64,000 nucleotides of DNA from NCBI RefSeq assembly GCF_000585375.1, contig NZ_KK073874.1, positions 1,922,001 through 1,986,000 of the forward strand, given 5' to 3'. The translations under genes were made by a program, and so were the position numbers. The notes below the pieces were generated by a model. The model made no database searches and was not told where the DNA came from. It saw only the letters and a program-made list of their open reading frames with translations. The stretch is from Cryptosporangium arvum DSM 44712. GTDB lineage: Bacteria > Actinomycetota > Actinomycetes > Mycobacteriales > Cryptosporangiaceae. This document shows, one piece after another, positions 41,905 to 43,185 of this stretch. How positions within the stretch are numbered: position 1 is the first letter of the stretch; each line of letters starts with the position of its first letter.

Positions 41905-42183
41905 TCAGGACCGCTCGTCCGGGCGCCCGACGATACGGACGACGCGGACGATCGGACCGACCTCCAAGGTGGCCACGTTGCCCCACTCGACGACCAGATC
42001 ACCGTCGGCGGTGGAGTACTGGAGACGCCCGCCGCGGTGGAGATCCTGACCGAACCGGCGCAGCGCGTCCTGGGGCGAACGCGCCACCACTCGAACAATT
42101 CGGGCAGTACCGTCAATCGCGACCCGTACCCAGAATTCACGCGCCGGTTCCGGACTGTTTTCTGACGGGCGTTCGCGCTGCAT
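41905..42183 (-). CDS. Small protein of unknown function under a LexA box
   Basis: 92 residues. After a charged N-terminus the rest alternates hydrophobic and polar residues (FWVRVAIDGTARIVRVVA; GDLVVEWGNVATLEVG), suggesting a small beta-rich fold with one helix, SPQDALRRFGQDLHRG. No signal peptide, membrane segment or known domain is seen. ATG 42183 lies only 13 bases downstream of a perfect actinobacterial SOS box, and the leader is too short for a strong ribosome site. I infer induction by DNA damage. It is separated from the LacI gene by 80 bases. Confidence 0.65.
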   Translation of the reverse strand: MQRERPSENSPEPAREFWVRVAIDGTARIVRVVARSPQDALRRFGQDLHRGGRLQYSTADGDLVVEWGNVATLEVGPIVRVVRIVGRPDERS

Positions 42184-42195
42184 AGGGGCACAGTA

Positions 42196-42211
42196 TCGAA
42201 CTCTCGTTCGA
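42196..42211. promoter_or_regulatory. Perfect LexA (SOS) box
   Basis: TCGAAC-TCTC-GTTCGA matches exactly the TCGAACnnnnGTTCGA consensus known for LexA in mycobacteria and relatives. On the minus strand it is followed by GATACT, a possible -10, and the ATG of the 92-residue protein at 42183, so LexA bound here would cover that promoter. Confidence 0.8.
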
Positions 42212-42462
42212 AAGTTCGTGCGGGTGGTACCGGCGCGCCCGCCGGGATGATCGAGGTGTCTGAGTAGGTCGGGACACCGAGTAATCAGACGGGGTCGCGA
42301 GCCGATTCACTCACGTTCCTTCGGGAGGTGATCCCTACTTACTTGGCGTCAGCCCGTGCTTTTCTGACAACTACTCTTCAGAATTGAATATGCACCCTCA
42401 GCGACGAGGGTCGGGGCGTGGAAGTTCTACTGGTCCGTGGCGACGGGATCGGAGACAAAGTC
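42212..42462 (+). other. Intergenic leader region with hairpins and extended Shine-Dalgarno match
   Basis: This 250-base stretch precedes the membrane protein at 42463. It contains a 6-bp hairpin GGTGTC/GACACC (42255-42278), the sequence GGGAGGTGATCC (42323-42334), which matches the complement of the 16S rRNA 3' end unusually well, and a CCCTC/GAGGG hairpin (42395-42410). A 19-codon frame starts at GTG 42328 but overlaps the Shine-Dalgarno match itself, so I do not call it. The 16-base run CGTTCCTTCGGGAGGT (42314-42329) recurs exactly at 44181-44196 before the DUF3145 gene. Confidence 0.4.
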
Positions 42463-43185
42463 ATGGGTCGTTACGTCAAGAAGCGCGGGGACGACGCGGA
42501 GACGCAGTACTGGTACCCGGGCGAGAAGGTCGACTGGATGCAGGGCGCGATCGCCATCGGCGGCGGCGTGATCGCGGGGGTGGCGATCCGGCTCGTCACC
42601 GACAGCACCATGTGGGGTGCCGCGGTCGGGTTCTCGGTGACCGCCGGGCTCGCCGGCATGTACCTCGGCCGACGCGACGCCCGGGCGCTCGCCGTGACCG
42701 ACACGACCCGATTGTCGGGCTTGGTGCTGATCGGGATGGCGTTCCTCCGTGCCCTGGCCAAGGGGTCGGGTGCGGCGCTGGCCGCGATCGTCATCTCCAG
42801 GGCGGCGACGCCGGGGATCTGGACCGAGTGGCTCCTGCCGCTGGTGCCGGCGGTGATCGGCGCGGTGGCCCACCACCTCGGCATGTTCTACGAGAACCTG
42901 GAGAAGGCGTCGCAGGTCCAGGTCAAGGCGTCGGAGTCGGAGCTGGCGAAGTTCGCGGCCGAGATGCGCAAGGCCAAGGAGACCCAGGCCGCCGCTCCGC
43001 CGGTCGAGACCCCGACCGAGGCGCTGCCGCCGGTTCCCGAGCGTCAGGACATCCCGGCCGCGTCCCTGCCCGGCGAGGTCGACGACAAGCCGCGGTGGCC
43101 GCAGCGGGCCGGCACGGAGAGCACCGGGTTCCACTCGGAGAGCGGCGCGGTGTTTTCCCGGCGTCGGCCCGCCGACGCACGCTAG
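42463..43185 (+). CDS. Membrane protein of unknown function
   Basis: 240 residues. Four hydrophobic segments between about residues 25 and 140 (AIAIGGGVIAGVAIRLV; AAVGFSVTAGLAGMYLG; LIGMAFLRALAKGSG; LLPLVPAVIGAVAHHLGMFY) are followed by a helical charged part (KASESELAKFAAEMRKAKET) and a Pro-rich cytoplasmic tail. ATG 42463 has GGAGAC upstream and is preferred to the GTG at 42418. No family recognised. A potassium-channel gene follows 32 bases later on the same strand. Confidence 0.75.
   Translation: MGRYVKKRGDDAETQYWYPGEKVDWMQGAIAIGGGVIAGVAIRLVTDSTMWGAAVGFSVTAGLAGMYLGRRDARALAVTDTTRLSGLVLIGMAFLRALAKGSGAALAAIVISRAATPGIWTEWLLPLVPAVIGAVAHHLGMFYENLEKASQVQVKASESELAKFAAEMRKAKETQAAAPPVETPTEALPPVPERQDIPAASLPGEVDDKPRWPQRAGTESTGFHSESGAVFSRRRPADAR

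Follow-up and report, generated by a model that had tools for sequence, protein, structure and literature searches.

A gene for a 92-residue protein of no recognised family in the actinobacterium Cryptosporangium arvum DSM 44712 lies directly behind a perfect predicted LexA (SOS) box. As judged from the DNA, regulation of this gene by LexA and its induction upon DNA damage are almost certain, because the predicted LexA site stands in the same place in each of the five species compared and is part of a promoter layout of the type that relatives have at error-prone polymerase genes. The finding is sound; it adds an orphan gene to a known regulon and does not represent a new kind of system. All positions given here refer to the analysed stretch of 64,000 nucleotides (contig NZ_KK073874.1, positions 1,922,001 to 1,986,000), which we call the window.

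The coding sequence (41905..42183, minus strand) runs from an ATG at 42183 to a stop at 41905 and specifies 92 amino acids, and the small gene of that length proposed by the first-pass annotation is a real one. Single-copy orthologues are present in all five genomes of the family, the reference included, and their products share 84–90% identity with the C. arvum protein within the genus and 53% in the other genus, which we use as the outgroup. Among the four genus members, pairs of orthologues differ at 28–40 third codon positions vs 5–9 first and second positions and dN/dS is approximately 0.08–0.20; because of this codon-position bias the open reading frame is coding, and it is under purifying selection. 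In addition to the orthologues, genome G002 has a paralogue that lacks the box (44% identity) and genome G004 a weak second paralogue (27 bits). Outside the family, no convincing homologue was found in scans of 85,000 species genomes, in a profile search of 399 genomes of the order and 395 of the class, or in phage, plasmid and viral collections. We rejected an alphaproteobacterial match (L032), a short low-GC frame with no further similarity that is probably antisense to another gene, as well as weak order-wide matches that are partial and lie in long frames that appear antisense to other genes. As far as searched, the gene appears to be restricted to one small actinobacterial family.

The predicted LexA box, the palindrome TCGAAC-N4-GTTCGA, occupies positions 42196..42211 on the minus strand. 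The exact consensus match that had been claimed for it is indeed there (TCGAACTCTCGTTCGA at 42196-42211), and it is the sole perfect LexA palindrome within the window; 100 dinucleotide shuffles of the same DNA yielded no such match. The distance between the box and the ATG is 12 bases, not 13 as first described. Genome-wide, there are five perfect boxes in 9.2 Mb, while boxes with one mismatch are common (105), the background for the box having been estimated from shuffles and from reversed-pattern controls.

A search for the same box before orthologues had been suggested at the outset, and a perfect palindrome is located at the same place upstream of every one of the five, the four-base spacer being different in each. 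When the five upstream regions are compared, 12 of 12 arm columns are invariant, as against 0 of 4 in the spacer. With a background of 25% invariant columns in these regions, the arm pattern has a chance probability of about 8e-8. The extended sequence TCGAACNNNNGTTCGATA, which carries the box two bases into the −10 element, has a single occurrence per genome in all five, in every case at the gene for the 92-residue protein, and its reversed-pattern controls gave zero occurrences in the same genomes.

The gene is located at a synteny break. An upstream block consisting of fabF, an acyl carrier protein gene (ACP), an ion channel gene and a gene for a 240-residue membrane-type protein without a family is common to the genus, while the downstream side differs. 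The last of these upstream genes is the divergent neighbour (42463..43185, plus strand); its start is 252 bp from the box, and it is found genus-wide and is absent from the outgroup. The outgroup shares neither flank and its flanking genes are unrelated, yet the 92-residue gene and its box stay together, from which we conclude that the box belongs to this gene. The divergent gene is probably not controlled by it. Between 42250 and 42463, upstream of the divergent gene, there are intergenic blocks conserved in the genus, among them an inverted repeat (CCCTCAGCGACGAGGG) at approximately position 42396, close before that gene.

On the gene strand the promoter reads TCGAAC-GAGA-GTTCGA-TACTGT-GCCCCT-ATG. 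The hexamer TACTGT (42190..42195, minus strand), a match to TANNNT that directly adjoins the box, is invariant at six of six bases in the four genus members and is the likely −10 element. It ends six bases before the ATG in these four genomes and therefore a leaderless transcript is expected; in the outgroup TAGACT is followed by seven bases and a GTG. A generic sigma-70 scan found no −35/−10 pair here, which is unsurprising since the operator takes up the promoter spacer region. The promoter thus looks leaderless from its sequence, and the lexA gene of Mycobacterium tuberculosis is itself leaderless (PMC2897130). In the mechanism we propose, a LexA dimer would sit on the palindrome, occupy the DNA immediately before the −10 element and so block RNA polymerase; RecA on single-stranded DNA would trigger self-cleavage of LexA, transcription would then yield a leaderless mRNA that begins with the ATG and a small soluble protein with the predicted order beta-beta-alpha-beta-beta-beta would accumulate.

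The genome encodes the regulators that such a mechanism would use. RecA is present and recA has a box with one mismatch (CCGAACTTATGTTCGA); a LexA DNA-binding domain occurs in three of the encoded proteins (L027, L028 and L029), one of which is canonical in layout, with several degenerate sites resembling the box upstream of its gene. The other perfect boxes are found at a gene for a PcrA/UvrD helicase, at an Rv2578c-family radical SAM gene, at a saccharopine-dehydrogenase-like gene and, in a divergent position, between a class-III aminotransferase gene on one side and an SAV_6107-HEPN gene, with imuA′ further downstream, on the other. In Streptomyces venezuelae the LexA motif is tCGAAC-N4-GNNCGa and a radical SAM gene is among the members of the Streptomyces LexA regulon (PMC9380542). 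Compared with this actinobacterial SOS regulon (PMC9380542), C. arvum has an identical box at a repression-compatible position, encodes both LexA and RecA and has further boxes at genes for a helicase and a radical SAM protein and at genes in the mutasome region; it differs in that the target described here is an orphan gene confined to one bacterial family.

The same arrangement is found well beyond the family. Of 399 genomes of the order, 89 contain the pattern box-TANNNT-N(5-8)-RTG, for which the controls gave zero matches, and we read the genes behind it at 70 sites (30 loci and a further 40). At these 70 sites the layout precedes dnaE2 in family f8, dinB in family f9 and, in family f4, imuB-like genes, the last called from weak Y-family matches together with reading of the sequence. 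It also precedes dprA, DUF222/HNH-type genes, genes for PNPOx-type oxidoreductases and, in family f15, the gene for a conserved tryptophan-rich protein of 74–82 aa. On fragments behind the layout NCBIfam supports the assignments as error-prone DNA polymerase, Pol IV and DprA, although several of these matches fell short of the full-length cut-off, the stretches read being only about 1 kb long. A few sites are followed by only very short frames and may be due to chance. Within the family of C. arvum, only the 92-residue gene occupies this slot. Its promoter shares with the leaderless SOS promoters of dnaE2, the imuB-like genes and dinB a perfect box, TANNNT, a gap of 5–8 bases and a start codon; unlike those promoters, it drives a protein that is unrelated in sequence to the polymerases, and there is no detectable homologue of this protein among the other layout-driven genes that were read.

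Several other genes behind the layout are of note in their own right. Order family f15 has a conserved tryptophan-rich protein of 74–99 aa (MEQRRHWWNGKWGRLARRDVFLR...) behind a leaderless LexA-box promoter, mostly one per genome (loci L091-L099, L101, L104, L108-L111, L143 and L145). It has no Pfam or NCBIfam match and its sequence context makes it a candidate for another uncharacterised SOS gene; homology to the 92-residue protein was considered and is not significant. The same family has a PNPOx-type, possibly F420-dependent, oxidoreductase behind a leaderless LexA-box promoter (L100, L103, L105-L107, L144, L146 and L152), an unexpected candidate SOS target. More uncharacterised small proteins, of 149–159 aa and 88–100 aa, are encoded behind the layout in families f9 (L083 and L115) and f4 (L126 and L147).

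A possible link to the mutasome, which in mycobacteria is formed by ImuA′, ImuB and DnaE2 (PMC10421592), comes from the paralogue in G002. On contig C16 of that genome the ATG of the paralogue overlaps the stop codon of imuA′ in an ATGA arrangement (imuA′ at L037 8958-9821; NF058630, 170.6 bits vs a cut-off of 65). The contig is 32 kb long, has weak ArdC/IrrE-type domains and is probably a plasmid or an integrative element. In actinobacterial plasmid records, imuA′-like genes are found in 81, and three of four loci inspected carry no annotated Y-family polymerase in the vicinity. Since none of these four plasmid imuA′ loci of other genera has such a neighbour, the link is a single case and we reject imuA′ linkage as a general rule. 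The 92-residue protein has no Pfam or NCBIfam family match that would relate it to ImuA′, ImuB or DnaE2. Taken together, the likeness to the mutasome genes consists of this overlap and of the promoter type shared with dnaE2 and imuB-like genes of relatives; in contrast to the mutasome (PMC10421592), the protein resembles no component and its chromosomal copy stands alone.

The protein itself has no recognised domain, as had been stated from the sequence: Pfam gives no match up to E 1, and the protein belongs to no family of NCBIfam, PHROG or PADLOC. When PDB sequences were searched with a profile, no match was better than E 0.019, and Rfam gave only a sub-threshold match. AlphaFold2, using a six-sequence alignment, predicts a compact soluble fold with a confident core (pLDDT >90 for 63 residues) in the order beta-beta-alpha-beta-beta-beta, and the AlphaFold model of the outgroup protein shows the same arrangement. 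Searched against the PDB, both models match Rv3208A (DUF3107) best, and Hfq entries are among those that follow; by Foldseek the match to Rv3208A is not significant (E 0.11–0.24, TM approximately 0.5 to the target, rmsd approximately 5 Å). Another DUF3107 structure has been deposited as ‘Small RNA-Binding protein’. Size is similar and the order of strands and helix is compatible between the 92-residue protein and these proteins (PF11305; PDB 7rur, 7rus, 9nip), but the match to DUF3107 (PF11305) is not significant by Foldseek or by profile comparison. We rejected DUF3107 homology on the grounds that Pfam gives no match and that a profile comparison with the DUF3107 proteins of the same genomes, each of the five family genomes having a separate DUF3107 gene, is not significant. 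The modelled likeness to DUF3107 and Hfq may be a lead on how the protein works, rather than a sign of family membership.

It is very improbable that we have been misled by a chance palindrome or a box that serves the divergent gene, with a spurious reading frame beside it. The divergent gene is kept across the genus and one-mismatch boxes are numerous, but arms conserved exactly around a free spacer in five genomes, an outgroup that keeps box and gene without the divergent gene, and codon-position bias in the frame all argue against it. An improbable alternative, though less so, is that a mobile-element gene was captured along with its SOS control and domesticated, serving spread of the element or counter-defence and not repair. 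This would suit the plasmid-like contig of the paralogue, with its weak ArdC/IrrE-type domains, and the synteny break at the C. arvum gene; it fits poorly with a single-copy orthologue under purifying selection in every family genome and with the lack of relatives in the phage, plasmid and viral collections. In other bacteria, small proteins induced in the SOS response often halt division, as do SulA, YneA and DivS, or tune RecA and LexA, as do DinI and RecX. A checkpoint or recombination modulator of this sort, for which such precedents and a tight single-box control suited to a protein made only upon damage both speak, is nonetheless unlikely here, given a predicted compact soluble fold that shows no obvious YneA/DivS-type membrane or LysM segment, and no DinI or RecX homology in Pfam.

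Also unlikely, if slightly less so, is an SOS-induced RNA-binding protein, similar to DUF3107 (Rv3208A/TB9.4) or Hfq and perhaps oligomeric, that reshapes expression after damage. The ranking of Rv3208A first and Hfq next for both models and the name given to the other DUF3107 structure point in this direction, while Foldseek E values of 0.11 or worse, the modest TM and rmsd values and the non-significant profile comparison point away from it. The function to which we give the largest single share, although one well below even odds, is, tentatively and by inference, that of an accessory factor in mutagenic DNA-damage tolerance, acting near the ImuA′-ImuB-DnaE2 mutasome or its substrates. In support of LexA control combined with this role are the conservation of box, −10 element and start in all five genomes, the retention of gene and box together in unrelated surroundings, the imuA′ overlap of the G002 paralogue and the same fused layout before dnaE2, imuB-like genes and dinB. 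Against a mutagenesis role, the layout also drives genes that are not tied to mutagenesis, such as those for the PNPOx-type oxidoreductases, no sequence homologue has a known function and the imuA′ link is confined to one locus. As a compromise between its two parts, we regard the whole explanation, LexA control and mutagenic-tolerance role together, as evenly balanced between right and wrong. With considerable reserve, we would conjecture that the protein is the first of a new family of mutasome cofactors induced by SOS, or alternatively an SOS-induced RNA-binding regulator, which this bacterial family employs in addition to the standard ImuA′-ImuB-DnaE2 set.

The description of the gene as a candidate new DNA-damage factor is a fair one, as a candidate, in view of the box at all five orthologues, the layout shared with dnaE2, imuB-like genes and dinB, and the canonical LexA, the RecA and the other perfect boxes at SOS-type genes of the genome. 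The actinobacterial SOS response thereby gains a well-supported orphan gene. In addition, the analysis defines a promoter grammar—a LexA box fused to a leaderless −10 element—that, applied to a sample of genomes from one order, retrieves genes for error-prone polymerases as well as other uncharacterised small genes. Which uncharacterised genes LexA controls most tightly thus becomes a question with a list of candidates to test.
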